Shown here one piece after another: positions 17,467 to 42,917 of a stretch of DNA of 64,000 nucleotides. The notes below the pieces were generated by a model. It had not been told where the DNA came from and made no database searches. It saw only the letters and a list, made by a program, of their open reading frames with translations. This DNA is from Seramator thermalis (lineage in GTDB: Bacteria; Bacteroidota; Bacteroidia; Bacteroidales; Dysgonomonadaceae), in assembly GCF_004138125.1 (NCBI RefSeq), contig NZ_RXHS01000005.1:1-64000 (forward strand), read 5' to 3'. How positions within the stretch are numbered: the stretch's first letter is position 1; every line of letters begins with the position of its first letter. The position numbers and the translations under genes are program-made.

Positions 17467-19110
17467 CTAAATTTCTTTATCGAGAAATAAGCCGAATTCA
17501 TTATACCGTTGATAAAGTTTCCGATATACCTCCCGATTTTCGGGTCGAGGATGGTATTCCGACAGATATCCCTTCCCCATTATATTTTGAGCCGATATGA
17601 TATCCTCAAAAATGCCGGCAGCAACAGCCGCACATATCGCAACACCCATCGCTCCCGCTTGTTGTGCGGCAGCTACCTTTATGGGAATCTCCATGATATC
17701 CGAAAGCGTTTGCATAACATAAGGCGATTTGAGAGAAATGCCGCCAACGCCAATAACCTCCGTGATTTTAACCCCTTCCTTTTCAAGATGCTCCATAATG
17801 GCACGCGAACCAAAAGCTGTAGCCTCAACCAGACTCTTATACAATTGTGCAGGTGTTGTCCCCAAAGTTAATCCCGTTATGCCGCCTTTTAATTTTTGAT
17901 CGGCATAAGGCGTACGACGCCCATTTAACCAATCGTTAGCAACAAGATCCAAGGCATTAACCGGCAATTTTTCCGCCGCTTCGGTCAATTTCGGGAGTAT
18001 TCGTCCGATAACATTTTCTTTATCATCCTTTTTTACATTATCGGGCAGTAAATCGAGCGTCCAAGATAAAACATCTCTAAACCATGCATATACATCACCA
18101 AAAGCAGACTGTCCGGCTTCGAACCCAATAAATCCGGGAATAACTGAACCGTCAATCTGCCCACTAATACCCGGTATAAGTTTATCCTTAACATCCTCTT
18201 TAGGTATTACCACAATATCGCAGGTAGAAGTGCCGATAATCTTCACCATCGCATAGGGTTTGATCTCAGCGCCGATTGCCCCTGCATGAGCATCAAGAAT
18301 CCCAACCGATATTTCTACAGATTGCGGCAATCCCAAGCGGTCCGACCACTCTTTTGTGAGTTTGCCGGCACTCATATCACTGGTGCATGTTTTTTTGCTT
18401 AAATGCCTTGCAAAATCGCCAAGCAACGGATCAAGCACCAAAAGAAAATCCGGTGAAGGATAACCACCCCATTCTTCCGCCCACATACATTTATGCCCTG
18501 CAGCACAACGACTGCGTTTCACCTTTTCGGGCTTCAAGTTTCCCGTCAGCAAGGCAGGCATCCAGTCACAATGCTCAATAACCGAATAGGCATCTTTTCG
18601 AATATCTTTATTCGTGCGTATAACATGCAATGCCTTTGCCCAAAACCATTCGGAGGAATAAATGCCACCCGAACGCGAAGTAAAATCCGTTTGCCAGCGA
18701 TGGGACAACTCATTGATTTCGTTCGCCTCCTGAATAGAAGTATGATCTTTCCACAAAATAAACATCGCATCGGGATCATCGGCATACTGAGGCAATAATG
18801 CCAACGGCATGCCATTCTCATCCGTCAAACAAGGTGTACTGCCGGTAGTGTCAATGCCCATCGCTACAATTTGCTGTTGCTCGTCGGAAGTAAGCTTCGA
18901 CAATACCCCATGAACGACTTCTTCCAACGAATCGATATAATCCTGCGGATGCTGACGATACTGATTTTTTGAAGCATCGCAATACAATCCTTTCTTCCAT
19001 CGAGGATAAAAGGCTGTATGGTCAGCAATTTCTTTACCTGACGTTGTATCGACTACTATCGCACGACAGGAATCCGTGCCGTAATCTATGCCTATTACCA
19101 ATTTGTCCAT
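17467..19110 (-). CDS. araB: AraB-type ribulokinase, predicted to phosphorylate D-ribulose
   Basis: This 547-residue FGGY kinase starts with the phosphate-binding IGIDYGTDSCRAIVVD and contains CDASKNQYRQHP, DTTGSTPC and GGISLKSPYVMQ, all typical of ribulokinases. AraB enzymes accept both L- and D-ribulose. No L-arabinose isomerase (araA) or epimerase (araD) lies nearby, while a FucI-type isomerase, which makes D-ribulose from D-arabinose, and FucP are in the same operon. I therefore infer D-ribulose as the substrate, giving D-ribulose 5-phosphate for the pentose phosphate pathway. It is the last gene of the operon, 26 bp after fucP. No clear terminator is visible in the 71-bp convergent gap to 17395. 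Confidence 0.87.
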   Translation of the reverse strand: MDKLVIGIDYGTDSCRAIVVDTTSGKEIADHTAFYPRWKKGLYCDASKNQYRQHPQDYIDSLEEVVHGVLSKLTSDEQQQIVAMGIDTTGSTPCLTDENGMPLALLPQYADDPDAMFILWKDHTSIQEANEINELSHRWQTDFTSRSGGIYSSEWFWAKALHVIRTNKDIRKDAYSVIEHCDWMPALLTGNLKPEKVKRSRCAAGHKCMWAEEWGGYPSPDFLLVLDPLLGDFARHLSKKTCTSDMSAGKLTKEWSDRLGLPQSVEISVGILDAHAGAIGAEIKPYAMVKIIGTSTCDIVVIPKEDVKDKLIPGISGQIDGSVIPGFIGFEAGQSAFGDVYAWFRDVLSWTLDLLPDNVKKDDKENVIGRILPKLTEAAEKLPVNALDLVANDWLNGRRTPYADQKLKGGITGLTLGTTPAQLYKSLVEATAFGSRAIMEHLEKEGVKITEVIGVGGISLKSPYVMQTLSDIMEIPIKVAAAQQAGAMGVAICAAVAAGIFEDIISAQNIMGKGYLSEYHPRPENREVYRKLYQRYNEFGLFLDKEI

Positions 19111-19136
19111 GAATCTTCTCTTTTTAATATTGAAAT

Positions 19137-20609
19137 CTATGCCTGTTTATTTTTTTCATCGGAAACAAACCGTACCTCTTTTTCGCGGGCAATGGTGAAA
19201 CTATAAACAGTGATAATAATGAAAGCGATAGCCGGAACCCAGTAGGCAAATTTTATGTTTCCCGATTGATCGGAAAGAATACCCTGGATTTGCGTCAAAA
19301 GAGCAGCTCCTGCAATAGCCATCACCATGCCTGATCCGGCAATCTTGGTATCTTCGCCCAAGCCTCTCATGCCAATACCGTAAATGGTGGGAAACATAAG
19401 CGACATGCATCCCGATATTCCCATTAGGGCATAGACTCCGACAAAACCCGAAGCATAAATGGCCGTAATCGAACAAATAACCGCCAGTACAGCCAAAGCA
19501 GAAAGGAGGTTAACCGGTTTGGTGTATTTCATCAACCACGTGCATATGAAACGGCCTGCCACGAAAAGAATGAGCGATAGAATATAATATGTTGCACCCG
19601 CTTGTTCCGCTGTCCTTGGTAATAGAGCATCCAATCCGATCCAGTCACAAAAACCATAAAAAGTGCCGGCAACAGGTTCAATACCACGTAAAGCGCCGAT
19701 AATTGCCTCGGAAGAAGGATTATTCCCTAATCCTGCAATGATCGCATCGAAATTCAATTGCTGCATCACATAACGAATAATAAACGACCATACCGCAATT
19801 TGCGCGCCTACATAAAAAAATTGCGCTATTACTCCGCCAACATAGTTCTTATTCCTTTTTAACCGATTAAAAGTAGCTTTCAGATTCAACGTTTTATCCT
19901 CGTCTTGAGCTCTCGGCATTTTTGTAAAAAATATAGACAGAAAGAGAATCAGCATTACCAGTCCCAATGCCAAATATGCCATGGTAACCGCATGAAGTTC
20001 CGTTCGCTGTATAGTTAACAGTTCTGTTTGGTTCAAAATTGCCCTATCTGAAGCACTCATTGTATTGAGCTGCGATAATACGAATATTTGACTAGTAATT
20101 ACTCCAGTTAACGCACCAAAAGGATTAAACGATTGAGAAAAATTCAATCTTCTTGTAGCCGTAAAAGGATCTCCCAACGCATAAACGTATGAGTTGGCAG
20201 AGGTTTCCAGAATAGAAAGCCCGGCAAATAATACAAAAATGGCAAAAAGATACATGGCAAAACAGAAAAATTTATTGATGCCGATCGTCAACATTGCGGG
20301 ATAAAACAACAGCGAACCCGTTATACAAAATCCCAAGCCCAATAGAACTCCCGATTTAAAGGTGTGCTTCTTGATAAACATTGCTGCAGGAAGAGCAAAA
20401 CATCCATATCCCAACAAATAACAAACCACCTGAATCCATGCTGTCTGTGTATCGGTAAGACTCATGATACGCTTGAAAGCCGCAAGCATGGTATCCGTCA
20501 TATTATTGGGTACCGCCCAGATAAAAAACAAGGAGGTAAGTAGAATGAACGGGAAAACGATCCCTTCGGGAACCAACCGATGCTTTTCTAAATGATTATT
20601 CGAATTCAT
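19137..20609 (-). CDS. fucP: FucP-type sugar:H+ symporter, predicted D-arabinose uptake
   Basis: This 490-residue major-facilitator protein has about 12 membrane segments. The N-terminus FFIWAVPNNMTDTML and the ETSANSYVYALG segment correspond to the two acidic residues that drive proton-coupled transport in E. coli FucP. E. coli FucP carries both L-fucose and D-arabinose. Because fucose-specific aldolase genes are missing here and D-arabinan hydrolases are present, D-arabinose is the likelier cargo. It lies 26 bp before the kinase and 15 bp after the mutarotase-like lipoprotein gene. Confidence 0.87.
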   Translation of the reverse strand: MNSNNHLEKHRLVPEGIVFPFILLTSLFFIWAVPNNMTDTMLAAFKRIMSLTDTQTAWIQVVCYLLGYGCFALPAAMFIKKHTFKSGVLLGLGFCITGSLLFYPAMLTIGINKFFCFAMYLFAIFVLFAGLSILETSANSYVYALGDPFTATRRLNFSQSFNPFGALTGVITSQIFVLSQLNTMSASDRAILNQTELLTIQRTELHAVTMAYLALGLVMLILFLSIFFTKMPRAQDEDKTLNLKATFNRLKRNKNYVGGVIAQFFYVGAQIAVWSFIIRYVMQQLNFDAIIAGLGNNPSSEAIIGALRGIEPVAGTFYGFCDWIGLDALLPRTAEQAGATYYILSLILFVAGRFICTWLMKYTKPVNLLSALAVLAVICSITAIYASGFVGVYALMGISGCMSLMFPTIYGIGMRGLGEDTKIAGSGMVMAIAGAALLTQIQGILSDQSGNIKFAYWVPAIAFIIITVYSFTIAREKEVRFVSDEKNKQA

Positions 20610-20624
20610 ATCCTTTATGTCCTA

Positions 20625-21872
20625 TCAAAATATGTGTTTTACTTTATCGATGCCTACTCCCAATAATTTTTCACAGATAGGTGACAAAACCGGTTCATCG
20701 CCAACAAAATGAAAAACATGATGCTGATGTGAGAGCGATCCGCCAGGTTTTAAAAATGCGGCAGGCGAACAACTTTCCAGTTCGAGGAAAGGCCCCATAA
20801 TGCTGCCATCTTCCAGGGGACCATCATTATAAGCATTCAAGGCATCCCCAAATAGTGGATCTTTTTTTGGATTCCACTCCTGGTTGAGGTAAATTTTCGA
20901 AGGATCAACGTCAAAAGTTACGATTGTCAGTCGCTTCGAAATAGGATCGTAATTACCGGCTATCCCTTTTGTCCGTTTTGCATTCATTCCTATTTTACTG
21001 CGGTATTTCCCATCCGTTTTCAAATAAAGAATTCCGCCTTCATCTCTCAAGCGATCGGGAGGAATTTCGCCAAAATAATCGGTAGTGGCTACTTTCCCTA
21101 GTTCTTTTTCGTCGCCTTCTCGATAAGGCACAATGGTGATGGCTGAATCTGATGGATGAAACATATCGAGCATCCAGATACAAACGGTGCCGGTTTTGGG
21201 TGTCCATTCAAAATCGTTTTTATTGGTAATTTTGTTATCGGTCGTGTAAGCAACGACACTTACTTCTCCCGGTAAGGATAGGGAAAGTAGCTGAGAGATA
21301 ACCGATTCGGGAAGCAACGATATTTTTCTTTCTACATTTACTTTCAGTAGGTTACCTTGATAATTTTTCAGTTCCATGTCTTTGGTAAACATAGCCTCCT
21401 TTTGCGAAACATGCTCAACCTGCCAAGTTTCGATATCAAATCCTTTCGGTGTATGCCAATTATCGTAAATTTGTTCAACGCCAGGTTCGAAAAAAATAGA
21501 ATATTTACCCCCTTCAGGGCCTAACCAAAGTCGGTTCTCGCCACCATAGCCATTCATATGTTCGTCGATTACGCCGGAATCGAATACCTTGTAGTTGACG
21601 AAACCGAGACTTCTTCCATCCAATCCGTTTGCCGTAGAAGTAAATACTTTAGCCTGATATTTTGCCGAAACAATCACCTGTGCTTTTTCATCATCCGATT
21701 TGAGCATAATCAAGCTGTCTTTTTCCGAGAGATAATTCAAATCATACCCGAAAGTTCCTTTTTCATACGTTTTCTTCATATTTTCTGACGTTTTTTTATT
21801 GCCTATGCAGGAGAAAAACATTATTCCCCCCATAGCTACCGGTAAAATAAAATTTACATAATTCATTTTCAT
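20625..21872 (-). CDS. Mutarotase-like lipoprotein (DUF6786-type), function unknown
   Basis: This 415-residue protein has a lipoprotein signal ending in MFFSC (cysteine at about residue 22), so it is membrane-anchored. The body is beta-rich, and segments such as GYGGENRLWLGPEGG and a late HHVFHF resemble galactose mutarotase/aldose-epimerase folds. I believe it belongs to the Bacteroidetes family DUF6786, from memory. A role in anomer conversion of released sugars, or as a sugar-binding or cleaving protein, would fit its place between hydrolases and the permease. No catalytic residue can be assigned with confidence. Confidence 0.65.
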   Translation of the reverse strand: MKMNYVNFILPVAMGGIMFFSCIGNKKTSENMKKTYEKGTFGYDLNYLSEKDSLIMLKSDDEKAQVIVSAKYQAKVFTSTANGLDGRSLGFVNYKVFDSGVIDEHMNGYGGENRLWLGPEGGKYSIFFEPGVEQIYDNWHTPKGFDIETWQVEHVSQKEAMFTKDMELKNYQGNLLKVNVERKISLLPESVISQLLSLSLPGEVSVVAYTTDNKITNKNDFEWTPKTGTVCIWMLDMFHPSDSAITIVPYREGDEKELGKVATTDYFGEIPPDRLRDEGGILYLKTDGKYRSKIGMNAKRTKGIAGNYDPISKRLTIVTFDVDPSKIYLNQEWNPKKDPLFGDALNAYNDGPLEDGSIMGPFLELESCSPAAFLKPGGSLSHQHHVFHFVGDEPVLSPICEKLLGVGIDKVKHIF

Positions 21873-21882
21873 TGTGTTAATA

Positions 21883-24006
21883 TCATTTTATAAATCTTTC
21901 AATCTCTCCAAATTTATCCCAAATACGATTATAAGCTTCAGCGGCGGCTCCATTTCCCCAATCGTAAATAGTAAATTCTCCCATCCCAAGACCTTCAGGA
22001 CTTGTTCTTCCATTGTGACCGTAATTTTCCATGGTAAACCCATAATCTTCGGGACCAAAAAAAGGCCATGTCTTTTCCCATTGCACTTTTGTTCTGGGAT
22101 TTTCCGGACAATACATCATTACAAACGATGACTTTAAAGCAGAAATGCCACGTTCATAATATTCCGACATACCTAATAACTCCCCATAACGCAAAATAAT
22201 TTCAGCAAAAAGGCTTCCCCGAGCATCGTTCCATTCGGCGTCGGAATTCATTACTCCAAAACCACCCAAAACATTTACATACATATATGACGGTTGCCAC
22301 GATGCCTGTGTCATCAGCATTTCATCAAGTGTTCGCTGACCATATCGTAAATATATCTTGTCCTTAGTAATCCTATAACATTCATATAAAGCTTCTGCTG
22401 TCCAAAACATGGAAAAATTATTCTGCTTGTAGATATTGTTTCTACCTACTTTTTTGCCTACCAAATGATCCGATCCGTAACGTGAGCAAGACCAGTAGGT
22501 CTCAAAATCCTCCCAACGCCCTACAGGGATGATATTATGGATTACCGCATCCATAGCTTTCAGCGCCGCCTTTTTGTATTCCTGTTTACTGGTCAATTCA
22601 TATAGCTTCAGGAGAAAAGTGACTGACATAGCAGTCTCAGGCGATTCGTTCAAATGATCCATTGGCTTTTGAGTGTGCAAATCAAGCCATACAGGGAAAA
22701 AACCGTTCTCCGACTGAATATTGAGCAACGAGCGGGCATATTGTTCCGCATAGCGAAGCAACCGTTCATCCTTTTCCAGTTCATCATACCAACGGAGCAT
22801 CAATAGTGCTGTCCAGCTCATATCAAGGATATGGAAAGGCGATTCTCTCGGATTCCAGGTATAAGGGTTCCGGTTTGAGTTTCCCCAATAATGGGTATCC
22901 CATCCTTTACTACGGTGATATTTCCTTCCCTCTATTTCCACCTCTTCCATTTCAGTGCCAATAAGTCCGTAGAAAAATCCATTCTTCTGAGGAAAGGAGA
23001 GTGCCAGCTCCTTAGTAAGCTGTGCTTTCTCCATCAACGCGCTATTTCCTGTTCGTCTTGCATAACGGAATAGACCTCCTGCAGAACGCAGGGAGCTAAA
23101 CCATGCCTGGTTCCATACGGAACGGAACTCTCGTTCATTCACCTCTCCCGGATAGTTGGGGCTCTGTGTTACGTTGACAATAAAAACAGGTGCACCCACC
23201 TTGTTTCCATTCAGTTCAAACTCCTGCCATACAGCATCAGCCCAGCTGTTGAACGCCCAGTTGTAGGTATGCTCCACATATCGTTCCAAATCGGCATCTA
23301 CCGGATTCCCGGCCTGATAAAGATCATGTCCCCAACGATCCCAGAAGAAATCGAGCGGCTTTCTGAAAGGGTTTTTAAGTGACACTTCGTCAGTATGCAC
23401 CATCAGGAAAAATCCGATCTCCACTTCTCCTGCCTGATACTCAGCGCCCAATTCACGGACAAACAGGACATGATCGTCGACCCTGCTGTTACTCATCCCC
23501 AATACCAAGCGATTATTTTCAGCATCGAGATCGAGATACCACCTTACCGGAGTTCCCTTTTTCATGATGTCCAGATCGGGAATTAGGGTAATCACTTGTC
23601 GGTCGTCTGCAGCAATCAGCGCCGGAGAACGGAACACATGCTGATCAATGATATGCCGGGGAGTAGGCGTGAGATGGGGTGCCCAATGGAATGAAGGGGA
23701 AAAGTCGGGAGTAACAACCACTTGCCAATCATCCTGCCGTATGGTTTGATTGAGGAAGAAACAGAATTGTATGTGCAGGCAATTCTCGTCCACTACCTCA
23801 ATTTGGCTGATTCCCTTTTCATTTCCCAACAAGTCGTATTGAACCTTACTAATGGTTTTTTGCCACATACTGGGTAACTTCACTTCCATTGGCAACGGCA
23901 GATTTTGCATCTCCGCATTCTGTGCCTGCAATAGGGACGAGAAAACCAAGACTGTAGTCAATACGCTATAAATAAGTCTCTTCATCATTTTCTGGTCTAT
24001 TTTCAC
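21883..24006 (-). CDS. Secreted (alpha/alpha)6-barrel-like protein, candidate new glycosidase
   Basis: This 707-residue exported protein (a start at the second or third methionine is also possible) has a signal peptide ending near LLQAQ. Residues about 30-230 look beta-rich. Residues about 240-690 show repeated helical units of the six-hairpin type: ALMEKAQLTKELALSF, LLRYAEQYARSLLNIQSE, EYKKAALKAMDAVIHN, IYLRYGQRTLDEML. Acidic candidates for catalysis occur in HLNESPETAMS, GRWEDFETYWSCSRYG and YDWGNGAAAEAYNRI. I do not recognise a named GH or lyase family. It lies within a run of D-arabinan enzymes, 8 bp after a GH172 gene and 11 bp before the mutarotase-like gene, so a side-chain or linkage-specific glycosidase is the natural guess. 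Confidence 0.6.
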   Translation of the reverse strand: MKIDQKMMKRLIYSVLTTVLVFSSLLQAQNAEMQNLPLPMEVKLPSMWQKTISKVQYDLLGNEKGISQIEVVDENCLHIQFCFFLNQTIRQDDWQVVVTPDFSPSFHWAPHLTPTPRHIIDQHVFRSPALIAADDRQVITLIPDLDIMKKGTPVRWYLDLDAENNRLVLGMSNSRVDDHVLFVRELGAEYQAGEVEIGFFLMVHTDEVSLKNPFRKPLDFFWDRWGHDLYQAGNPVDADLERYVEHTYNWAFNSWADAVWQEFELNGNKVGAPVFIVNVTQSPNYPGEVNEREFRSVWNQAWFSSLRSAGGLFRYARRTGNSALMEKAQLTKELALSFPQKNGFFYGLIGTEMEEVEIEGRKYHRSKGWDTHYWGNSNRNPYTWNPRESPFHILDMSWTALLMLRWYDELEKDERLLRYAEQYARSLLNIQSENGFFPVWLDLHTQKPMDHLNESPETAMSVTFLLKLYELTSKQEYKKAALKAMDAVIHNIIPVGRWEDFETYWSCSRYGSDHLVGKKVGRNNIYKQNNFSMFWTAEALYECYRITKDKIYLRYGQRTLDEMLMTQASWQPSYMYVNVLGGFGVMNSDAEWNDARGSLFAEIILRYGELLGMSEYYERGISALKSSFVMMYCPENPRTKVQWEKTWPFFGPEDYGFTMENYGHNGRTSPEGLGMGEFTIYDWGNGAAAEAYNRIWDKFGEIERFIK

Positions 24007-24013: not shown

Positions 24014-25951
24014 CTAATCTATTCTTTCGAGTGTAATCAAATTCAGCTCGAACTGATCGGATTTTCCATTGCTCCTCACATGAAAAGTGATGGAATTTGT
24101 CTGGGATGTAAGTTGAATATCTCCCACATGGATATTCTCCCTGAAAGTCTCTTGGGCTGCTTTAGTCGGTATCCAATCCGAGAGCCTATTCTGCCGTTGC
24201 CATACCTGAAAATCGGCACCACCGGGTTTTTCGTGATAATTGACCAATACCTTGTATTTTCCTTCCGGCACATCCGTGAGCATTACTCTTACCGCACCCT
24301 GCCCGAAGGAAGTAAACATCAACCCTCTATCTAAAATAGCCTGCATCCCTCTGTCGAGAGTGATTTCCATCAACTGCGGAAAATAGACATGGGTAGAAGG
24401 CAGATAAACCTCGCGTAATTCAATAGTAGGTTCCATTTTTTCCTTAAGAGGTTGTGCCGCATAAAAAAATGCTACCGATATGTAATCCACGGGAAAATTA
24501 TTGCCTGATTCGCCGTGCTCTATTCCGTGATAAATCTCTTTCTCGAAAGACAATTTGTCGGAAAGGAAAAAGCGATAACCACCAGTGCGCCCCATAGGCA
24601 ATGAATAATCGAGCGAACCGTGTATGGGCATGCTGATTCCCCTGTCCCAACGATCGAGCAAGGCGTACCATCCTCCGTTATAATAATCTTCCGAACCGGT
24701 GCCATGCAAACGCATTTTTCCATCCACATACGTGGTATCATCACCCTCAAAAAAGAGGGTCATGCCTGGGCGCAGTCCCTGTGCCTGATGAATAGTTCCC
24801 ACGTAATGCCCTTTCCCTTCGATCTCCATAAAGGTATGAAACTGCCCTATTTCGGGCTTTTCTCTTCTCCAAACGGTATAAAATTTTCCCTCATCCTTCA
24901 CATTCCGTCCATTATCGTTATAATACACTTTCACGTTGACCGGTACAGGATTCTGACATACTCCCTCCCTTTCCTTATAGACAAGTTTCATAGAGGCAGA
25001 ACGATCGAAAGGCATAGGCAGGTAACAATAGTTGGAAGTCTCCTGCCGACCCATCAGGATACTGCGCATGGCCGGCTTGCCGTAAGCATATCCGAAGAAA
25101 TCGGCCACAGGGGCATAGATCGCTTCTACCTTTTCATCGTCCCATTTCGCCGAAAGGATAATATCTTTATAAATACCCTCGAACGATGTTCCTCCATCAA
25201 TTTCAAAGCCTACAATACGTCCGGCCGTTTTTTTGTCGAAAAATGTGAACTCCTCACCCGGTTGCAGCGTAAAACTTTTTTGTTCCGTTTCAATTCCGTC
25301 CGACAAACCCGATGTATAATTTTGTACCGTTGGAAAAATGCCGGACCACAACATGCTTATTTCCGACAAAAGCTCTCGGTCGGATTCCGAGAAGTTCCCT
25401 GTCCAACTTTCCACATCCATGCCCGGCAGTTTTCGAGCTTGTATCTGATGGAACATTATCTTTTCTCCTTCAAACACAACCTTCAGTGATTTTTTGAAGG
25501 GGATGGGAATGTAGCAATAATATCCGCCTATTTCGTTTCCGCAAACAGGTTTTACGAACGGATACACCTCTCCCGAGAAGAGATCCATAAACCGAATTTT
25601 CAACCGCGGTATTTTTTCTCCATCGAAATAAAACGACAGTATATCGCTGGTCGGGGTAGGGGTCCAAATCCTGTTTACCACACCGGGCCCTTCAAATTCT
25701 GCAAGGACAAGGTGTGCGTTCTCTTTCCGGACATATGAATATTTTCCCGAAAAACCGTCGTCGTTGCCCCACGTGCGATCGTAGCTCGATTCTTGCTCTA
25801 TAAGTTGATTGTGACGATATGCGGGAAGCAAATCCACTCGTTTTAGTAACGCCAGTTCTTTTCGGAATGTGTGTGTTTGCGAATATGTGTTTAAGCCGCA
25901 AATAAATAGCAATACGACACCCGGAAAAATTTTCAGCGATATCTTTCTCAT
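24014..25951 (-). CDS. GH172 (DUF2961) protein, long form with C-terminal extension
   Basis: This 645-residue exported protein has the GH172/DUF2961 core in its first 450 residues: LAEFEGPGVVNRIWTPTP, PRLKIRFMDLF, CYIPIPFKKSLKV, and the two glutamate segments FFEGDD and GTGSEDYYNGGWY, 19 residues apart. A C-terminal beta-domain of about 150 residues follows, ending in a segment that resembles a carbohydrate-binding fold (SITFHVRSNGKSDQFEL). GH172 includes exo-alpha-D-arabinofuranosidases and difructose-anhydride synthase. The frame runs to 26041, but the start at 25949-25951 (MRKISLKIFPG) gives a proper signal peptide and avoids overlap with the upstream gene. Confidence 0.85.
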   Translation of the reverse strand: MRKISLKIFPGVVLLFICGLNTYSQTHTFRKELALLKRVDLLPAYRHNQLIEQESSYDRTWGNDDGFSGKYSYVRKENAHLVLAEFEGPGVVNRIWTPTPTSDILSFYFDGEKIPRLKIRFMDLFSGEVYPFVKPVCGNEIGGYYCYIPIPFKKSLKVVFEGEKIMFHQIQARKLPGMDVESWTGNFSESDRELLSEISMLWSGIFPTVQNYTSGLSDGIETEQKSFTLQPGEEFTFFDKKTAGRIVGFEIDGGTSFEGIYKDIILSAKWDDEKVEAIYAPVADFFGYAYGKPAMRSILMGRQETSNYCYLPMPFDRSASMKLVYKEREGVCQNPVPVNVKVYYNDNGRNVKDEGKFYTVWRREKPEIGQFHTFMEIEGKGHYVGTIHQAQGLRPGMTLFFEGDDTTYVDGKMRLHGTGSEDYYNGGWYALLDRWDRGISMPIHGSLDYSLPMGRTGGYRFFLSDKLSFEKEIYHGIEHGESGNNFPVDYISVAFFYAAQPLKEKMEPTIELREVYLPSTHVYFPQLMEITLDRGMQAILDRGLMFTSFGQGAVRVMLTDVPEGKYKVLVNYHEKPGGADFQVWQRQNRLSDWIPTKAAQETFRENIHVGDIQLTSQTNSITFHVRSNGKSDQFELNLITLERID

Positions 25952-25965
25952 TATTCCTCGGTTTT

Positions 25966-27138
25966 TTAATTCACTTCTAATTGCTGCCAATCGGGTAATT
26001 GTGGAAATTTGGTATGAGGCTCTTTTTGATACCAAAAACAAGTCGAAGATATATCCGATTTCTGGGGCAAATACCGTCCTCCATGGCGCCAGCCCAAGTC
26101 CTGAATCGTGATGCGCAAATCCTTTTTAAAACGAACAGGATCCATGATGTGCCAGCGATAAAGCCCAAAACGCTGTCCTGCTTTATACGTCAGATCAGGG
26201 GATATTACCTGCACAAGTCCGCTGTAAGGGGTGGTAAAGGTGACATATTTTCCATTCCGGTCGAAATTGTACGAGCCACAAAAATAATCTTCCGTTCCCG
26301 TACCGCAAATCGTAGGAAATTTTGTGTCGCCATCGAGAAAGAATTTGATCTCTCCTTCTCCCCACCAACCATTATTATTCACTTGCCATGCCAGATAAAC
26401 ACCAACAAAATGCCCCGCGCCTTTAACATTATCGATAATCGTATAATCCGACGTTTCGTTCACTTTTGTCCTGCGAAACTGCGCATGAAAATAGGCCGCA
26501 TCATCCGGAACATCGGTAAGTGTGTAGTCTATTTGGTAATAAAGCCGCATTTCGTCCTGATCATTGATATTTTCCATCGTAATCCGGCATTTCTTCCGAA
26601 AAGGCATCGGCCAGTAACAATTAAATGCACTTCCCGGATTGACACAAACGGCAAGCGAATTAAGATGAGCATATTCACCCCATCCCATCCCAAAAAAATC
26701 GCCTACCGGTACTTCAACCGAAGGAGTTTCTTCATCGTCCCAGTAAATACGGACAATGGAAAATCGCCAATTACCGGTAGGTGTCATCCAGATATGCTGA
26801 ATGGCTCCCGGACCGTCAATTTCGGCCAAGGTAATTGTCTCGCCGGGTTTAATAATGATAAAAGGATTAACCTTCCATCCTTGTCCAAGATCTCGTGCTG
26901 CCAAAGAAGCATTGGCCGTATTTCTCGTTGCTTCCGGATCAGGTATGGCCATCCCTCCCTTTCCTTTTTCTCCCGTAAAGTTTTCGGGACTGATCGATCT
27001 TGTTTCGGCATCGGAAAGCCGATGCAGATTTCCCATATTCATATTCAATCCGTTGAACCTTTCATTTTGTCCCAAAAGATTCGTAGATGAAAAAATCAAA
27101 ATAAATAAAAGACTGTAAACAATTGATTTAGATTGCAT
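25966..27138 (-). CDS. GH172 (DUF2961) predicted exo-alpha-D-arabinofuranosidase
   Basis: This 390-residue exported protein has a signal peptide ending near NLLGQ. The GH172 core is complete: ITLAEIDGPGAIQHIWMTP, SVEVPVGDFFGMGWGEY, CYWPMPFRKKCRI, and the two glutamates in GEGEIKFFLDGD and GTGTEDYFCGSYNF. Known members cleave terminal alpha-D-arabinofuranosyl residues. It overlaps neither neighbour: 14 bp to the next GH172 and 45 bp from GH116. The compact size fits the hexamer-forming GH172 enzymes. Confidence 0.88.
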   Translation of the reverse strand: MQSKSIVYSLLFILIFSSTNLLGQNERFNGLNMNMGNLHRLSDAETRSISPENFTGEKGKGGMAIPDPEATRNTANASLAARDLGQGWKVNPFIIIKPGETITLAEIDGPGAIQHIWMTPTGNWRFSIVRIYWDDEETPSVEVPVGDFFGMGWGEYAHLNSLAVCVNPGSAFNCYWPMPFRKKCRITMENINDQDEMRLYYQIDYTLTDVPDDAAYFHAQFRRTKVNETSDYTIIDNVKGAGHFVGVYLAWQVNNNGWWGEGEIKFFLDGDTKFPTICGTGTEDYFCGSYNFDRNGKYVTFTTPYSGLVQVISPDLTYKAGQRFGLYRWHIMDPVRFKKDLRITIQDLGWRHGGRYLPQKSDISSTCFWYQKEPHTKFPQLPDWQQLEVN

Positions 27139-27183: not shown

Positions 27184-30100
27184 CTATTTTACTATTTTGC
27201 CTGAAACGATAAATTTATTCACGTCAATATGCCCGTAAACCACGTTTAATGAAGGCTTTCCTCCCTTATATGTAATTGTTCCAAATCCCGTAGCAGTACT
27301 GATAAAACTCGTAAAATCACCGATTTTTGAATCGATATACATCGTTTTGTCCACCGCATCGTATCGAACACCTGTCAAACCTTGCAACATTCCATAACTT
27401 GACATGGCTCGTGCGTACCAATGCCCGCATTCATATTCATCGAAAGGATTTCTCACCGTTCCATCATATCTTTTTCGGCACTCTCGAACAATTTCCAATC
27501 CTTTTTCTACTTCTCCTTTAAACATGAGATGACTCGCAACCTGATACTCTATTCCTGTCCAAACTTCATTGCTGTAAACAAAAGGTAAGGAAAGTTCACC
27601 ACCTTTCGGCCAGGTACATAACAAAAGTCCACCCTCGTTTCCGCAAGCATACGTAGGTCGCTGTGGATTGGCATGATCCATTAAATCCGTTTTTAAATTG
27701 TATTGATGAACAGCAAGCAGATGACTTTTAACTTTCTGGTGATCAACAATTTCGTTAAGGCCACATACCGACGCTAACCACATTCCCAGAATACCGTCCG
27801 AAAGACATCCCTTTCCATACTGATATTTGGGCCCTTCTTTTTTCAATAAAGCAAGTGCTTCCTCCGAATATGCCCCGCCAAAAGATTGCACTTCAAGTGG
27901 ATTGGGAGCTAGTAACCCTTCCCATTGAATTTTTTGAATGAAATACTCTCCATCATAAAGATCATTTTCAATATATTTTTTCCCTCTTGACAAGAGCGTT
28001 TCGTATTCATTATAGGGCTTTTTTAACTCCTCGCTCATTTCAATGAAAGCAGTTAAAGCACCCAAATAAAAACTGGTACACATTCCATCAGGTCCCCAAA
28101 ACTCGATATCGTACGTATTATGATGAGGCTCTTCAAGATAACCTTTCCGCTTTGGATCCCACGTACGAATGCAATAATCGAGACTCAATTTAACGTAAGG
28201 GTAAAGACTTTTCATCCACTCCGTGTCACCATTGATATGCCAATCGCGATACACTTTCATGATACCGCCCAATTGCCCATCCGCAGCTGCATGAAAATTA
28301 TGCGGCGGAGGAGTAAGTGGAAGATTAGCTCTGAAATTCTGGTGTCCTTCTTCATTCTGATTAATCTTATATTCCGTTTCACGCAATGTCCTTTCTAAGG
28401 CAGGGAATAAATGAGGAATTGCTTGAGCATAATTCCACACATGCGTACAACTTCCATGACAACAACCGGAATTATCATTACAACCCTCCCACGCCCAAAG
28501 CCTTCCATCAGCCATTCTCAAAACGGTAGGGGATTTCAAAATGGTAAGATTGGCAGCAATAGCTTCCATTACTTCCGGCGGAAGAGTAGATGCATAAAAA
28601 GCACCTCTGAACAATTCACTTTTCTTTTTAAGGTCATCAGCATGAAGATCCCAATATTGAATGAGTTCATTCAGATTTTGAAAACGGGAAGCATACCAGG
28701 GTTTATAAAATCTCTCTGACGAAGAAAATGTTTTTTGCTGTTCTTCGGCTTCAATGATTTCCCACTCTCCATAATCTTCACCTTCAAAATTCGCCAAAAG
28801 AGTAGCCGAAGAAGAAGAAGGAACGAAAAGATCTTCTGCCCGATCATCTGTCAAGACAAATTGATCGGCAAGAATATGCCCCCACACTGCAGTCTCCAAA
28901 TCGACGATTTTTATCCGAGCAGTTTTGCCAACATATTCCTTTAAATCCCAAACTTGTTCATTTAAAACCTCGGACTGATTACCGGTGGCTGTTTTTATAA
29001 TTTCATCATCGACCACCAAATTTACGGAAGTTTTATCTTTTTGGGTTCCGCCACCTACCAAAAATTTCAGAAATCTTTTATTGATTTTGAACTCGGGTGA
29101 CAATAAAATACCCATCTGTCCATCACCATTATGATCAAATGTATTGACCAACTGTTTACCGGCAAATCCCGAAACTTGCTGTTGGCCGGGAGCAGTGCCT
29201 TTAGATGGTTTGTCTCCGAAAGCATTACCGGTGAACATGGCTTGTCCAATGGATAAATCGGATTTTGGTAAATACCAGCAAAAATTGACCCTGACAACTT
29301 TTTCGTTTCCGGGAAGCAAGGAGAACGGTACATAAATAGACGCTCCCGGCGACACTCCTTCAATCGGAGGATGGCTTATCAGATTTCCTTCCCGAATATT
29401 TTTCCATAAAATAGTCTGGGAATCAAACCAACCGCCTCTAAACCAACAATGATCAACAACCGCCTTATCACCATTAACATAAATTCCAAAACCTCCAACA
29501 GCATTTCCACCTCCATTACCGGCTTTTGTCAATCTGAAACCATTTCTTAACGCAGAAATATTACCTTTCTCGTCAATAAAGTTCTTTGCATTGTATGAAA
29601 AAACAGCATCAATTTTTTTCCCCGAAGTATTTTTAAAATGATATTCCAATACCCCCACCGGTAAACTCGAATTATCTTCATCAGTAGGAATAAAAGGACT
29701 CCAACCAGTAATTTCAATTTCGAGCGGAATATCTTTATCTTGCAATTCAATTGTGGCAAAAGGGAAACGAGCCAAAAAAGAACCGTTTTCGAAGCGTGGT
29801 AAACCGTAATTCCGATTACCACCACCATTCCCTGTTCCGGGCGGACCAAACAATTTCCATTTCGGTACCACTGCTTCCAGGACTTTAGCACCTCTTTCAA
29901 TACCTTTTATACTTATAGCAGCAAAAGCATAGGGTTCATTATATATGTCAGGCCGATTGTTCACCGAAAGATGCGAAATGGCTCCCGTTCCCGCAAGACA
30001 GAACATTCCGGCGCCAATACCTCCTATCGGGAAAGCAATTCTATTTAAATATTCATTCTCGTATTTTCCGTTGAAAACTCTTTTCGTCCTTTCCAATTGA

Positions 30101-30234
30101 ATTTTAACCGGATCAATGGTCGGATGCTGCTTCAATAAGCTTTCAGCTGATGCAAAGCCGGGGATATTTGACGCGGCGATCGTGCCTAACCCAATTTTCT
30201 TTAGGAATGCCCTGCGATTGTTATTCATTTCCAC
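27184..30234 (-). CDS. GH116 glycosidase with an inserted beta-sandwich domain
   Basis: This 1016-residue exported protein starts with a Tat-like signal (NRRAFLKKIGLG). The N-terminal beta domain has the GH116 mark FPIGGIGAGMF (about 68-78) and the C-terminal (alpha/alpha)6 barrel has GCCHGSCTHVWNYAQAIPHLFP (as GCCHGSCTHVWNYAQA, about 590-605), EEPHHNTYDIEFWG (about 701-714) and GCLSDGILGMW (about 809-819), the last probably holding the acid/base aspartate. GH116 contains beta-glucosidases, glucosylceramidases and exo-beta-D-arabinofuranosidases; the neighbours favour the last. About residues 340-500 hold an extra domain with FLVGGGTQKD, wDLKEYVGKTARIKIVD and WGHILADQFV, the pattern of a lectin-like domain also seen in GH32-type proteins. 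Its start overlaps the preceding stop by 14 bp. Confidence 0.9.
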   Translation of the reverse strand: MEMNNNRRAFLKKIGLGTIAASNIPGFASAESLLKQHPTIDPVKIQLERTKRVFNGKYENEYLNRIAFPIGGIGAGMFCLAGTGAISHLSVNNRPDIYNEPYAFAAISIKGIERGAKVLEAVVPKWKLFGPPGTGNGGGNRNYGLPRFENGSFLARFPFATIELQDKDIPLEIEITGWSPFIPTDEDNSSLPVGVLEYHFKNTSGKKIDAVFSYNAKNFIDEKGNISALRNGFRLTKAGNGGGNAVGGFGIYVNGDKAVVDHCWFRGGWFDSQTILWKNIREGNLISHPPIEGVSPGASIYVPFSLLPGNEKVVRVNFCWYLPKSDLSIGQAMFTGNAFGDKPSKGTAPGQQQVSGFAGKQLVNTFDHNGDGQMGILLSPEFKINKRFLKFLVGGGTQKDKTSVNLVVDDEIIKTATGNQSEVLNEQVWDLKEYVGKTARIKIVDLETAVWGHILADQFVLTDDRAEDLFVPSSSSATLLANFEGEDYGEWEIIEAEEQQKTFSSSERFYKPWYASRFQNLNELIQYWDLHADDLKKKSELFRGAFYASTLPPEVMEAIAANLTILKSPTVLRMADGRLWAWEGCNDNSGCCHGSCTHVWNYAQAIPHLFPALERTLRETEYKINQNEEGHQNFRANLPLTPPPHNFHAAADGQLGGIMKVYRDWHINGDTEWMKSLYPYVKLSLDYCIRTWDPKRKGYLEEPHHNTYDIEFWGPDGMCTSFYLGALTAFIEMSEELKKPYNEYETLLSRGKKYIENDLYDGEYFIQKIQWEGLLAPNPLEVQSFGGAYSEEALALLKKEGPKYQYGKGCLSDGILGMWLASVCGLNEIVDHQKVKSHLLAVHQYNLKTDLMDHANPQRPTYACGNEGGLLLCTWPKGGELSLPFVYSNEVWTGIEYQVASHLMFKGEVEKGLEIVRECRKRYDGTVRNPFDEYECGHWYARAMSSYGMLQGLTGVRYDAVDKTMYIDSKIGDFTSFISTATGFGTITYKGGKPSLNVVYGHIDVNKFIVSGKIVK

Positions 30235-31333
30235 TATTGTTGTTTAAATTGAATTCATTAACTACGGCGTCATAAGGGTGTCGATTCTTTATCTGCCAGA
30301 TAAACTGTTGCGGTGAGAGCGGGGTAATCCCAAAAACAAACTGTTCTCCATTTTTAAACGGTGATTTCAATTCAAAGTTTTCAATTGAAATACCTCTCGG
30401 AATGGGGGTTTCACTTGCCCAATAGGTAAAACGCCCGTTGACCAATCCGGTCAGTTTCTCCTGAGGGTTCTTCTGTGCCCAATATTGCGTTGCCTGTTTC
30501 CCGGTAAATTTCCAATGTACATTTGTCTCGGCTGCGTACACCGCTTTACTGTAGTCTTTTTCATTGGGTGCAGCAATAAAATAAGCGTCCCCCTTCCAAC
30601 TCCGTATCATCTCTTGTTGAGAAAAGTACGCATGTGACGTAAAATGGATATCCTTGTAACCAGACCACAAATCGAGTGAGGATTTTTCTCCGTCTTTTAA
30701 GAAAAGCGTTCTCAAACGGGCTTTGTTTCCCATGGTAGCGGTCGTTATGAAATAATCCAGATCAACGGAGCCGCTATATGTATTCGTCGTTATCTCAAAT
30801 TCGTAAGGGCGGGATTCGAAGAAACGAAGGCGAACATACACTTTGGCTCCGTTATCAAAAGGTTCGGAAAAAACATACAAGGTAAGCGTCTCCTCCCCGT
30901 CTATCTTTTCCACTACCCCTCTTGCCGGGTATTGCTCATTTAAAGATAAAACAGCCGTAGCATCGTCAGAGCTCCAAAAACGTTTTCCCCATTCATCCTT
31001 ATCCAGACTACTCTTTTCAAGTTCCGAATACCCACGTTCTTCAGCTCCTCTCGGAATTGGCTCAAAAGCAATAAAATTCATCACCTCAGGAAATTCATAA
31101 TCCAGATAGGGAGTGTAAATTCTGATCAATCCTCTGGGGCCCGGTAACGGAGCCAATCCCACAATTATACCATTGGCATGGCCCCATTCCGGCATCGCCG
31201 GTTTTCCCTGTACCGGTTGTATCCAGGTGCCAACCGTATCGGGTGGCGCCAATTGCTTCCAATCCGAAAAACTCTGCTGAGTACCCGAACGGAGGAGTAT
31301 CAGTAAAAATAAAGAAAGTAGTAACTGTCGCAT
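30221..31333 (-). CDS. Secreted protein of unknown function in the D-arabinan locus
   Basis: This 370-residue protein has an N-terminal signal peptide (MRQLLLSLFLLILLRSG) and no lipobox. The body appears mostly beta, with aromatic-rich segments such as PRGLIRIYTPYLDYEF, YVRLRFFESRPYEFEI and YWASETPIPRGISIENF. The last is the sort of pattern seen in mutarotase-like beta-sandwich proteins, but I cannot name a family. Its stop codon overlaps the GH116 start by 14 bp and it begins 36 bp after the GH183 gene, so its expression is tied to GH116. It could be a binding protein, an esterase-free accessory domain or a new enzyme. Confidence 0.55.
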   Translation of the reverse strand: MRQLLLSLFLLILLRSGTQQSFSDWKQLAPPDTVGTWIQPVQGKPAMPEWGHANGIIVGLAPLPGPRGLIRIYTPYLDYEFPEVMNFIAFEPIPRGAEERGYSELEKSSLDKDEWGKRFWSSDDATAVLSLNEQYPARGVVEKIDGEETLTLYVFSEPFDNGAKVYVRLRFFESRPYEFEITTNTYSGSVDLDYFITTATMGNKARLRTLFLKDGEKSSLDLWSGYKDIHFTSHAYFSQQEMIRSWKGDAYFIAAPNEKDYSKAVYAAETNVHWKFTGKQATQYWAQKNPQEKLTGLVNGRFTYWASETPIPRGISIENFELKSPFKNGEQFVFGITPLSPQQFIWQIKNRHPYDAVVNEFNLNNNSGNE

Positions 31334-31368: not shown

Positions 31369-32802
31369 TTAATCCTGAAAGCTACCCATATCTGCTATTT
31401 CGGCTTTCATCAAAAAAACATTGTAGGGCATCCACATCGACATAAGGAAATAGAGATTTTCTCCTGTTTCCGATAGGGGATGGAAATAGGACCCGTACAA
31501 TTGTGGATAATCCTTTCCTGCTGCCAATTCATATGGCTCACTCCAAGGACCAGTAAGCTGTTTCGCAGTACGCATTGTGATATTATACCGGTCACCATTG
31601 AAATAGGCAATAAACCACTTGTTGAATGTCTCATTATAAATGAATGATAACTCTCCCACTTTATCGTTAATAATAATAGTTGCCAGATTTTCATCTCCTT
31701 TTTTCCACTCACCGGAAGAGCCGTTCCAGTATTCATACTGATCCCTGTTTTCAATATCCGATTCAAGAAAACGGGCAAGAGCGGCTTTGCTGTCTCTACC
31801 GGTTTGCGTACCGATCATATAAACATACCCATCTTTCTTAAAATATCCTCCTTGCCCAAAAGGACTATCGGAGGAGAATGTAATGCCATCACATTTTTCC
31901 CATGTTTGCCCGTTATCCATCGATTTGTACATCCCGGAATAATTAGTGATCCATCCAGTCCAGTTCCTGATATTGAAATAATGGACATAATCAATCCCGT
32001 TAGCACGGATAGCAGCAGAAGGAATAGACGTCCAGTCTCCATTTCCAGATGTGTCTTTTCCTCCATGTATGATTTCTCGAGCATCACCCCTCGCATCAGT
32101 CACCATGCTTCTGAAAGTCAATCCGTCATCCAAATTTTTATCTTCAGAAAAAGCGAGTACATTACTTCTCCAACAACATCCATTAGGCCCAGGATTGGTG
32201 GGATTTGGCTTGAAATCACGGCCGAAAGTATCGCCAAAGAATATCCCATATTTATCGGGGCCCATCTCCCAGATAATACCCAGATCCGTTCCACCAACAT
32301 TCCATTTCAATGGAGTATTATTGGGACTGGGGAATGTTTCTCCGGACATCTGAGCTCCCGTAACACGTGCTATTCGCATCACATTGCGGATAAAAAAACC
32401 CCACCTATTATCTATACTGAGTGAAATTTCTTTAGAAACATTTCCATCCCGATAAACGGCTTTCAGTAAAAGTTTGAAAAAATGTGGGTCGGAAGCCCTT
32501 ACCGTATATTTGAAAAGATACGGTGATGAAAGCACACTCCGACTGATCTTTTCCGAATAACTTTCTCCTCCACTCTTATTCACGATCAGATAATCAATAT
32601 TGTCAAGATTTTTAAACTCGAGAAGTGTAGAAACAGTCTTTGTCTTCTTGTCGGGTATAAGATCTGTTTCAGCCACCGAGATCTCATCAATCGGAATATA
32701 AGGCTTATTCCTACCTTCTTCTTTACCGCAAAAGGATACACTCAATGCAATGATTGAAAAGGCTATAAATATACGATAGTTTTTATTTTTCTCTACATTC
32801 AT
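31369..32802 (-). CDS. DUF4185/GH183 lipoprotein, predicted endo-D-arabinanase
   Basis: This 477-residue lipoprotein has a signal ending in SVSFC, followed by G-K-E-E-G. That matches the X-K-(D/E)2-X lipoprotein export signal for the cell surface known from Capnocytophaga. Residues about 35-130 form a small beta domain. The rest is the DUF4185 five-bladed propeller: GTDLGIIWEMGPDKYGIFFGD, GCCWRSNVLAFSED, SGMYKSMDNGQTWEK and MRTAKQLTGPWSEP. GH183 enzymes cut alpha-1,5-linked D-arabinan internally. A surface location suits the first cut on the polymer. An IS element ends 22 bp upstream of its ATG. Confidence 0.88.
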   Translation of the reverse strand: MNVEKNKNYRIFIAFSIIALSVSFCGKEEGRNKPYIPIDEISVAETDLIPDKKTKTVSTLLEFKNLDNIDYLIVNKSGGESYSEKISRSVLSSPYLFKYTVRASDPHFFKLLLKAVYRDGNVSKEISLSIDNRWGFFIRNVMRIARVTGAQMSGETFPSPNNTPLKWNVGGTDLGIIWEMGPDKYGIFFGDTFGRDFKPNPTNPGPNGCCWRSNVLAFSEDKNLDDGLTFRSMVTDARGDAREIIHGGKDTSGNGDWTSIPSAAIRANGIDYVHYFNIRNWTGWITNYSGMYKSMDNGQTWEKCDGITFSSDSPFGQGGYFKKDGYVYMIGTQTGRDSKAALARFLESDIENRDQYEYWNGSSGEWKKGDENLATIIINDKVGELSFIYNETFNKWFIAYFNGDRYNITMRTAKQLTGPWSEPYELAAGKDYPQLYGSYFHPLSETGENLYFLMSMWMPYNVFLMKAEIADMGSFQD

Positions 32803-32815: not shown

Positions 32816-32824
32816 ATAAAAATT
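32816..32824. repeat. Left copy of the 9-bp IS target duplication
   Basis: ATAAAAATT here is repeated exactly at 34255-34263, immediately outside the two ends of the insertion sequence. An intact duplication points to a fairly recent insertion. Confidence 0.85.
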
Positions 32825-34254
32825 CATTGTTGTCCGGTAAAACCGGTAATTTGATTTTTGATCACGATTTAAAGGGCTTTCTGCCCAGTTTTCCGTGTAT
32901 TTCTAAAAGCAAGCCCCTTCCCATTGAGCAAAGAGTGAATATTGATCTGTCATGCCTTTTTGACGAGATTTTTGCTCTTCAATAAGTTCCTGCCAGGCTT
33001 TTTCAGGATTCTCAAAGAATCTTCTGACATCGATGTAACTCATCAAGTGCTGCCTGATTACGGAAACCATGTTTGAAAATGCCCATTTCCGCTTAATTTG
33101 GCTTTTGAGTATCATCAGCAGCAAGTTGGCCAGCATAACCGACCAAATTTGTATGATAATGGCGTTCTCGTTGTCTCCCAGAAAATATTTCAAGGGAAAG
33201 TTCTGCTTCAGCTGCTTGAAAAGCAGCTCAATCTGCCATCTTTTTTTATAAATCCGGGCGATCACTTCTGCCGGAAGTTCCATATTATTGGTAATGAACT
33301 CAAACAGGCGTCCATTGGTGGAATCCCAGTAAGCTATGCGTCTTGAGAGATGCTTTTCAGTTTTGTTCTTACCGTAGGAAAGCTCAATCTGTTCATCTTT
33401 CAGGACACCTGAATCGGCATCATCCGGAATATCAAACTCTTCGCGTGCCTGATAAAGAGCATTATCCTTTAAGCGGGTTACATACCAGATTCTTTTACGG
33501 GTGAAAACCTCATACTGTGCGTAATCCACATATCCTTTGTCAAAGCAAAGAATAGAATCTTCAGGAAGATTTACCTCCTTTAGCAAAAGATGGTCGTGTT
33601 TTGCGGCTTCTGTATAACGGATGAAACAGGGCTGGTTATCTTCCGAACGGATGATGGTATGGGCTTTGATACCACCCTTCTTCTTTCCATTTTCAGGATT
33701 TCGTCCTACGCCCTTCAAGATATTCTTGAACAGCGTTATCGTGGTCGAATCCATGATATAAAGACGCTTCATATCCTGTTTACTCAAGCTGCTGTCCGTT
33801 AAACTACCGGAGTAACGTCGATAGGTATCGTAATATACCCGGGCAAAGATATCGGGTGTGCGACGGGCATTGGCCTCTGAAAGAGTGCTGCGCCGGACAA
33901 CATAATCAAGGCCGAGGTGCCCGAGACGATGAGCATTAGATAGCAGGCCCAATACGGTCTCACGAATGGAGTTGTAGCCCTCGAAAGCAACAAACAACAT
34001 CACAACAATATGTTTATGGCCGGTGAATCGCTTCACATACTTATCAGCTCCCAACGCTTTGGATGCCTTTGATATTTTTGACTTGTCCAATAAATTTAAC
34101 AGCTGTGTAAAGATCGGCTGTCCGCTAAAATTTGTACCTTTGCCCATGTCGGTTATCTTTTTTTGTTTTGCAACTATAAAGGTAAACCTTCTGGGGGAAT
34201 TACCGAAAGGGGGTCCCCTTCATTTTAGCGTATATGTTTTACCGGACACCAATG
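32825..34254 (-). mobile_element. Intact IS4-family insertion sequence
   Basis: The element is 1430 bp. The terminal inverted repeats are 19 bp with 18 matches: CATTGTTGTCCGGTAAAAC at 32825-32843 and the complement of CATTGGTGTCCGGTAAAAC at 34236-34254. It is flanked by the 9-bp direct repeat ATAAAAATT. It carries one transposase gene on the minus strand, the same orientation as the surrounding operon. A short palindrome (AAGGGG-GT-CCCCTT, 34207-34220) lies in the leader of the transposase and could limit read-through expression. The insertion separates the susCD half of the operon from the GH183-to-kinase half. Confidence 0.93.
32903..34147 (-). CDS. IS4-family DDE transposase
   Basis: This 414-residue transposase has an N-terminal DUF4372-like region (about 1-75) and a DDE catalytic domain. 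The aspartates are in YIMDSTTITL and CFDKGYVDY, and the IS4 signature Y-x2-R-x3-E-x6-K is exact in YKKRWQIELLFKQLK. The frame is complete, with no stop or frameshift, so the element may still be active. Confidence 0.95.
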   Translation of the reverse strand: MGKGTNFSGQPIFTQLLNLLDKSKISKASKALGADKYVKRFTGHKHIVVMLFVAFEGYNSIRETVLGLLSNAHRLGHLGLDYVVRRSTLSEANARRTPDIFARVYYDTYRRYSGSLTDSSLSKQDMKRLYIMDSTTITLFKNILKGVGRNPENGKKKGGIKAHTIIRSEDNQPCFIRYTEAAKHDHLLLKEVNLPEDSILCFDKGYVDYAQYEVFTRKRIWYVTRLKDNALYQAREEFDIPDDADSGVLKDEQIELSYGKNKTEKHLSRRIAYWDSTNGRLFEFITNNMELPAEVIARIYKKRWQIELLFKQLKQNFPLKYFLGDNENAIIIQIWSVMLANLLLMILKSQIKRKWAFSNMVSVIRQHLMSYIDVRRFFENPEKAWQELIEEQKSRQKGMTDQYSLFAQWEGACF

Positions 34255-34263
34255 ATAAAAATT
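34255..34263. repeat. Right copy of the 9-bp IS target duplication
   Basis: This ATAAAAATT is identical to 32816-32824 and directly abuts the right terminal repeat. Confidence 0.85.
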
Positions 34264-34299
34264 CAAATTCGAGACTCTCAAGAAAAATAGATAGATAAT

Positions 34300-42903: not shown

Positions 42904-42917
42904 GTTAAACGTTTAAC
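42904..42917. promoter_or_regulatory. Perfect 14-bp palindrome, candidate LacI operator
   Basis: GTTAAACGTTTAAC is a perfect palindrome with the central CG step typical of LacI-family operators. It lies in the 47-bp gap between lacI and fucI. Binding there by the adjacent regulator would block transcription into the whole locus. No TAnnTTTG box is visible inside the gap. Confidence 0.65.

Follow-up and report, generated by a model that had tools for sequence, protein, structure and literature searches.

D-Arabinan is a polymer of mycobacterial cell walls. Clusters that join its breakdown to the use of the released sugar have been described in Dysgonomonas gadei, as the polysaccharide utilization locus (PUL) PUL42 (Al-Jourani et al. 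2023, PMC10115798), and in Microbacterium arabinogalactanolyticum (Shimokawa et al. 2023, PMC10509167); in the available text of these reports, release and catabolism are already encoded together, with D-ribulose 5-phosphate as the product in Microbacterium, and a GH116 gene of PUL42 is noted in the second. Here, we analyze a cluster in a window of 64,000 nucleotides (the whole stretch of DNA under study, positions 1 to 64,000 of contig NZ_RXHS01000005.1) from the bacterium Seramator thermalis (Bacteroidota), in which an L-fucose-type isomerase (FucI), an L-fucose-type permease (FucP) and an AraB-type ribulokinase accompany homologues of D-arabinan-degrading enzymes. An initial sequence-only reading of this window had regarded sugar release and sugar catabolism as not previously described together, a view that the two published clusters contradict. 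We conclude with high confidence that the cluster is a Bacteroidota D-arabinan utilization locus carrying its own D-arabinose catabolic cassette, an explanation in which we infer all substrate specificities, the localization of the proteins and the regulation.

The catabolic part has precedents in Escherichia coli. According to the available text of PMC6452873, FucI acts on D-arabinose, and FucK together with FucA can complete another route from it in this bacterium; AraB turns over D-ribulose with a kcat similar to that on L-ribulose and, combined with FucI, allowed evolved E. coli to grow faster on D-arabinose. The phosphorylation of D-ribulose by AraB, feeding the pentose phosphate pathway, is likewise mentioned in the accessible part of PMC12307932.

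Polysaccharide enzymes and catabolic genes of the cluster

The three genes on which the sequence-only reading was built are present where it had placed them, as open reading frames for the kinase (17467-19110, 547 aa), FucP (19137-20609, 490 aa) and FucI (41115-42890, 591 aa), and their identities were confirmed by profile matches. The kinase scores 685 bits with the ribulokinase model NF003154 (cut-off 428) and 581.9 bits with the L-ribulokinase model TIGR01234, marginally below the cut-off of 583.25; the permease, a sugar:H+ symporter with the solved relative 3o7q, scores 391 bits with TIGR00885 (cut-off 280), and the isomerase 1039.8 bits with TIGR01089 (cut-off 850). The kinase and FucP lie at one end and FucI at the other, bracketing the D-arabinan utilization genes, all of them on the minus strand like the remaining genes of the cluster, which comprise three GH172/DUF2961 genes, a GH183 and a GH116 gene, a SusC/SusD pair and a LacI-family gene.

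The polysaccharide enzymes point to D-arabinan as the substrate. The GH183 (DUF4185) protein (31369-32802; PF13810, 320 bits) is a homologue of the endo-alpha-D-arabinanase 8hhv (E 5.6e-53), and its D173 and D191, invariant in the three aligned rows, have the same spacing as D170 and D188, which are named in the available text of PMC10115798. The closest solved relative of the GH116 protein (27184-30234) is the exo-beta-D-arabinofuranosidase 8ic6, matched at E 1.3e-108 compared with about 1e-11 for GH116 beta-glucosidases; its H598 and R635 align with His446 and Arg483, the residues named for recognition of D-arabinofuranose (D-Araf) in the part of PMC10509167 consulted, if the 8ic6 chain is numbered four above the numbering of the paper, an offset that fits both residues. 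One GH172 protein (25966-27138; PF11175, 329 bits) is closest among solved structures to the exo-alpha-D-arabinofuranosidase 8ic8 (E 1.6e-118, against 6.6e-46 for the fructan enzyme alphaFFase1), and another (39894-41090; PF11175, 269.6 bits) matches the uncharacterized 4kq7 (E 1.4e-212) and its relative DgGH172c of D. gadei (8ah3, E 4.7e-186). Of the features of a D. gadei-type D-arabinan PUL, GH183, GH172 genes, the SusC/SusD pair and a fucose isomerase gene are present.

In the pathway that we propose, D-arabinan would be cut by the GH183 enzyme, the fragments would be taken up by SusC/SusD, and D-arabinose would be released from them by the GH172 and GH116 enzymes. Interconversion of the D-arabinose anomers in the periplasm would probably be sped by the DUF6786 protein discussed below, after which FucP would import the sugar, FucI would convert it to D-ribulose, and the AraB-type kinase would yield D-ribulose 5-phosphate, which itself belongs to the pentose phosphate pathway. 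AraB-type kinases phosphorylate ribulose at C5 and FucA requires the 1-phosphate; with the 5-phosphate as the product, therefore, an aldolase is not needed. Control of the cluster probably lies with the LacI-type protein, acting at a palindrome ahead of fucI.

The FucI/kinase pair in this and other genomes

D-arabinose, rather than L-fucose or L-arabinose, was proposed as the substrate from the window itself, and the wider analysis supports this choice well, because the D-arabinan enzymes are linked to these genes and separate L-fucose and L-arabinose loci exist in the same genome, and because the FucI/kinase pair recurs in GH183 genomes, some of them without a match to AraA or to class-II aldolases. 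The genes araD, araA and araB lie together at C22:290782-294677, followed by a GH127 gene, and the L-fucose locus on C8 (L012 10262-16337) consists of GntR-fucI-fucU-fucP and an alpha-L-fucosidase gene; neither fucK nor fucA adjoins the latter. C36 carries rhaA, rhaB, a RhaD-ADH-like protein below the cut-offs of its models, and a tandem class-II aldolase. This aldolase (432 aa; L015 5131-7744), which adjoins a zinc-type alcohol dehydrogenase, reaches no NCBIfam cut-off, and similar tandem matches occur in several related genomes. In a search of the whole genome, class-II aldolases of the FucA/AraD family (PF00596) and AraA (PF02610) were found on C22 and C36 only, with no PF00596 match on the window's own contig, C33. 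The claim that fucA, araA and araD are missing, and the genome-wide search for them that was proposed along with it, thus have a divided outcome: all three are absent from the window, whereas the genome holds araA and araD on C22 and class-II aldolases on C22 and C36. Their absence was accordingly dropped as evidence for D-arabinose. No sign of an aldolase co-regulated elsewhere appeared among the things seen, co-regulation itself not having been measured. The genome encodes four kinases with the FGGY_C domain: RhaB, AraB, the window kinase, which is the sole FGGY kinase of the cluster and of the AraB type, and one that is best scored as XylB, albeit below the cut-off, and adjoins xylose isomerase; none of them reaches the FucK model. 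The cluster therefore resembles neither an L-fucose operon, there being no class-II aldolase on C33 and an AraB-type kinase in place, nor an L-arabinose operon, given that araA and araD are on C22 and not beside the window ribulokinase.

For the comparative analysis, the best 80 of 549 loci from a GH183 alignment search were taken, of which 30 were Bacteroidota by title; 28 Bacteroidota genomes were analyzed, with L039 (from the same genome as L037), L041 (3 kb) and 50 other loci excluded, and 393 genomes of the window's order, including that of the window, served as the background. Among the 28 GH183 genomes, FucI was matched in 25, an AraB-type kinase in 24 (E 1e-60), class-II aldolases in 22 and AraA in 14. 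In 14 of the 28, an AraB-type kinase is encoded no more than 25 kb from FucI, compared with 6 of 392 background genomes (7 of 393 with the window genome counted), where at most three kinase candidates were scored per genome, so that the number of pairs may be low (Fisher's test p 2.6e-14, which ignores relatedness and differing sampling). The same fetched stretch holds GH183 in 11 of the 14 pair genomes, a FucP nearest to that of the window in 10, and DUF6786 in 11 and one more. AraA is unmatched in eight of the 14, and class-II aldolases in five (G401, G410, G411, G415 and G420, that is, four metagenome-assembled genomes and, as G410, an isolate draft of Hoylesella buccalis), so that neither an L-arabinose nor an L-fucose route is visible there. 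No AraA was located within 25 kb of any FucI-paired kinase. In Petrimonas sp. IBARAKI, whose genome is complete according to its title, the only AraB-type kinase above the threshold is in the cluster, and AraA has no match.

The pair is not confined to the neighborhood of GH183. Among the six background genomes, the set of LacI, FucI, DUF6786, FucP and kinase is complete or almost complete in three, and the stretch read from G320 shows the cluster of the window, GH183 and GH116 excepted. Among the 28 GH183 genomes, FucI adjoins a RhaB-like kinase in one, and one has its cassette divided between two contigs. PF13810 is matched at E 1e-10 in 12 of the 393 genomes of the order, above 280 bits in only three, and the two of these other than the window genome (G337, 40 kb read; G060, 60 kb read) showed no FucI, FucP or kinase in the stretches read. 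In the Actinomycetota loci read, the kinases are 21-24% identical to that of the window.

The window proteins are 68% (FucI) and 38% (FucP) identical to their C8 paralogues and 54% (kinase) to AraB on C22. In the kinase tree, the 16 kinases from FucI loci, among which L108 (G418) is labeled D-arabinan although its FucI sits on another contig, separate from the 14 AraA-adjacent ones, except that the Sphingobacterium kinase L133 is placed, on a long branch, on the AraA-linked side. The starred branches of this tree force at least two changes, and therefore, the simplest reading is that AraB-lineage kinases entered FucI loci at least twice. In the FucI tree, D-arabinan-type loci, including the window's, and L-fucose loci, including the C8 paralogue, fall on opposite sides of a 97/95 branch, with the exception of two Sunxiuqinia copies that adjoin DUF6786 and are found on the L-fucose side; L135, L137, L165 and L176 are labeled 'none' in this tree, their neighbors being in another fetched piece. 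In Sphingobacterium corticibacterium (L146), FucI and DUF6786 are accompanied by an AraA-clade kinase and a FucP closer to the C8 type, apparently an independent assembly of the same pathway. Some alignment columns follow the same divisions. In the kinases, column L272 is I or L in 16 of 16 FucI-locus sequences, and F in 12, Y in one and M in one of the 14 araBAD sequences, with column E195 separating the groups less cleanly; in FucI, columns 13, 63 and 67, among others, differ between 34 D-arabinose-type rows (counting L135, L137, L165, L176 and the Sunxiuqinia L158 and L159, with L161 and L173 excluded) and six other rows. These group-separating columns are confounded by descent.

Competing explanations and the insertion sequence

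Several observations weigh against the D-arabinose pathway as drawn here. The residues W120, K207, D273 and E331 of the kinase, which align with W126, K208, D274 and E329 of its solved relative 3qdk, presumably the substrate contacts of that enzyme, are invariant in the 16 FucI-locus and the 14 araBAD rows alike. The best solved match of the window FucI, the D-arabinose isomerase 3a9r, is also that of the C8 L-fucose paralogue, and the name of this match was accordingly dropped as evidence on the substrate; 3a9r scores 965.9 bits against 886.3 for the best L-fucose isomerase with the window FucI, and 926.9 against 913.9 with the paralogue. In nine of the 28 GH183 genomes (several on short contigs), FucI stands beside DUF6786, GH183 or GH172 with no AraB-type kinase within 25 kb, and FucI is unmatched in three. 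G395 has AraA and AraD on another contig; the sole AraB-type kinase detected in this genome is the one paired with FucI, which could thus also serve L-ribulose. Finally, an insertion sequence (IS) may have cut FucP and the kinase off from the fucI promoter.

The last point underlies the strongest alternative, namely, that the D-arabinose pathway is correctly identified and is silent in this strain, a possibility that we consider real although rather unlikely. The IS4-family element (32816-34265; NF033592, 202.9 bits) contains a transposase gene (32903-34147) and inverted repeats (32824-32843 and 34236-34255), and it is flanked by an exact 11-bp direct repeat (32816-32826 and 34255-34265), a target duplication. 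It lies between the DUF4945 and GH183 genes and parts the half with FucI from the half with FucP and the kinase; expression of FucP and the kinase from the fucI promoter, therefore, cannot be assumed, and the single transcript envisaged in the sequence-only reading is doubtful in the window strain. The Petrimonas cluster is colinear and free of the IS. The perfect 14-bp palindrome GTTAAACGTTTAAC (42904-42917), a putative LacI-type operator, precedes fucI by 13 nt and follows the gene for the LacI-family regulator (42938-43936; PF00356, PF00532) at a distance of 20 bp, and no second palindrome of this kind was found in 17001-44300. Its core, TTAAACGTTTAA, recurs ahead of fucI in Petrimonas (at 25 and 89 nt) and in G320 (at 13 nt), and Proteiniphilum has two copies of a one-base variant; the core was not found in the ten more distant D-arabinose-type loci examined or in the C8 locus. 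A single palindrome before fucI is consistent with an ancestral cluster that was regulated as a unit. Against silence, the transposase gene shares the orientation of the cluster, so that read-through or an outward promoter could sustain expression of the distal genes. Scans for promoters and terminators were dropped, since such sites occur at near-chance counts (41 against 45.7 expected, and 23 against 18.7 expected) and decide nothing.

An L-fucose pathway completed by an aldolase elsewhere, such as the tandem class-II enzyme on C36, appears very improbable. FucI and FucP are, to be sure, named for L-fucose, unlinked class-II aldolases do exist in the genome, and the C8 L-fucose locus, lacking fucK and fucA at its side, must also rely on distant genes. 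However, that locus, with its own FucI, FucU, FucP and fucosidase, is separate from the cluster, where no fucosidase was seen among the scanned open reading frames; the cluster kinase is of the AraB type, which acts at C5, whereas FucA requires the 1-phosphate; and five of the 14 pair genomes show no class-II aldolase match. That the kinase is a second L-ribulokinase for L-arabinose, next to FucP by chance, is equally hard to credit, its ribulokinase scores with E. coli-type models and the arrangement in G395 notwithstanding, in view of the complete araD-araA-araB set on C22, the eight pair genomes in which AraA is unmatched and the distance of all FucI-paired kinases from AraA.

DUF6786, the remaining genes and described systems

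The DUF6786 protein (20625-21872; PF20583, 512 bits) is a candidate periplasmic D-arabinose mutarotase and likely a lipoprotein, as suggested by its modeled structure and N-terminus. The model (pLDDT 90.3) has the fold of aldose 1-epimerase (galactose mutarotase), aligning with 3k25 (Z 21.4, rmsd 3.2, 257 residues) and 3ty1 (Z 21.3, rmsd 3.6, 278 residues), with a Foldseek match to 3nre at E 9.1e-12; the same superfold occurs in YidC and in sugar phosphorylase domains (Z 14 to 15), and the protein matches no Pfam epimerase model. Four residues, E364, E366, H382 and H388, are invariant in 25 rows and may include counterparts of the catalytic His and Glu of GalM. All 25 rows also share Cys22, in a lipobox-like position, but the Pfam lipoprotein model picked out just one of them. 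DUF6786 was detected in 30 of the 393 genomes of the order, within 25 kb of FucI in 13 and not so in 17; its linkage to FucI is strong but not exclusive. A more ambitious combined reading, which we advance tentatively and rate a little short of an even chance, is that the Bacteroidota assembled a D-arabinose cassette in which AraB-lineage kinases, recruited at least twice, became D-ribulokinases, and DUF6786 became a periplasmic lipoprotein mutarotase supplying a D-arabinose-specific branch of FucP; if so, the recruitment of the kinase would be the natural counterpart of the laboratory-evolved combination of FucI and AraB, and DUF6786 the D-arabinose counterpart of FucU.

The protein at 30221-31333, which begins with a hydrophobic stretch and has no Pfam or NCBIfam match, is a candidate new D-arabinan protein. 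Its model (pLDDT 79.7) matches only beta-sandwich domains of diverse enzymes, with one Foldseek match at E <=0.001 and a best Z of 14.6 (rmsd 3.1, 216 aligned). Homologues with 44-52% identity were observed in four Actinomycetota GH183 loci (L071, L093, L096 and L101), and Bacteroidota loci encode homologues, too. The remaining genes are those for a secreted protein of 707 aa with a weak GH88-like match (21883-24006; PF07470, 28.2 bits, cut-off 26.6), a two-domain DUF2961/GH172-like protein (24014-26041; PF11175, 191.8 bits), a DUF4945 protein (34378-34788; PF16303, 154.8 bits), SusD (34812-36620; PF07980) and SusC (36735-39866; TIGR04056, 830.8 bits). The GH88-like protein is retained in the majority of closely related clusters and might be a further glycosidase. 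Outside the IS region, neighboring genes overlap by up to 76 bp or are separated by up to 114 bp.

These findings provide Bacteroidota D-arabinan loci with a complete, testable route from the polymer to the pentose phosphate pathway, the kinase step being proposed here, and flag two uncharacterized proteins, DUF6786 and that at 30221-31333, in a system that dismantles a mycobacterial cell-wall polymer. The labels 'L-fucose isomerase', 'L-fucose permease' and 'L-ribulokinase' are probably misleading in such loci. Among open-licence papers in PMC, we found none under the name DUF6786, and none in which this protein or a kinase of the AraB lineage is described from D-arabinan loci of Bacteroidota; the new points are modest, namely, the entry of AraB-lineage kinases at least twice and DUF6786 as a candidate D-arabinose mutarotase.

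Set against the described systems, the window cluster is distinguished from PUL42 of D. gadei by the IS insertion; the main text of PMC10115798 does not contain the word 'ribulokinase', and D-arabinose catabolism is not worked out in its accessible part. The Microbacterium cluster, as presented in the available text of PMC10509167, has an ABC transporter where the window has SusC/SusD and FucP, and exo-enzymes without a signal sequence. In evolved E. coli K-12, as proposed for the window, FucI leads to D-ribulose and AraB to D-ribulose 5-phosphate; that route arose via regulatory mutations in fucR and araC, with FucK still essential (PMC6452873, as far as available), whereas the window locus has a built-in AraB-lineage kinase. 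A ribulokinase likewise joins a FucI/FucP set for D-arabinose in the case of DarK, the D-ribulokinase that E. coli carries as an insertion in its fuc locus; in the available text of PMC12307932, which mentions no polysaccharide enzymes, DarK is grouped with D-ribulokinases apart from AraB, whereas the kinase of the window cluster is of the AraB type.

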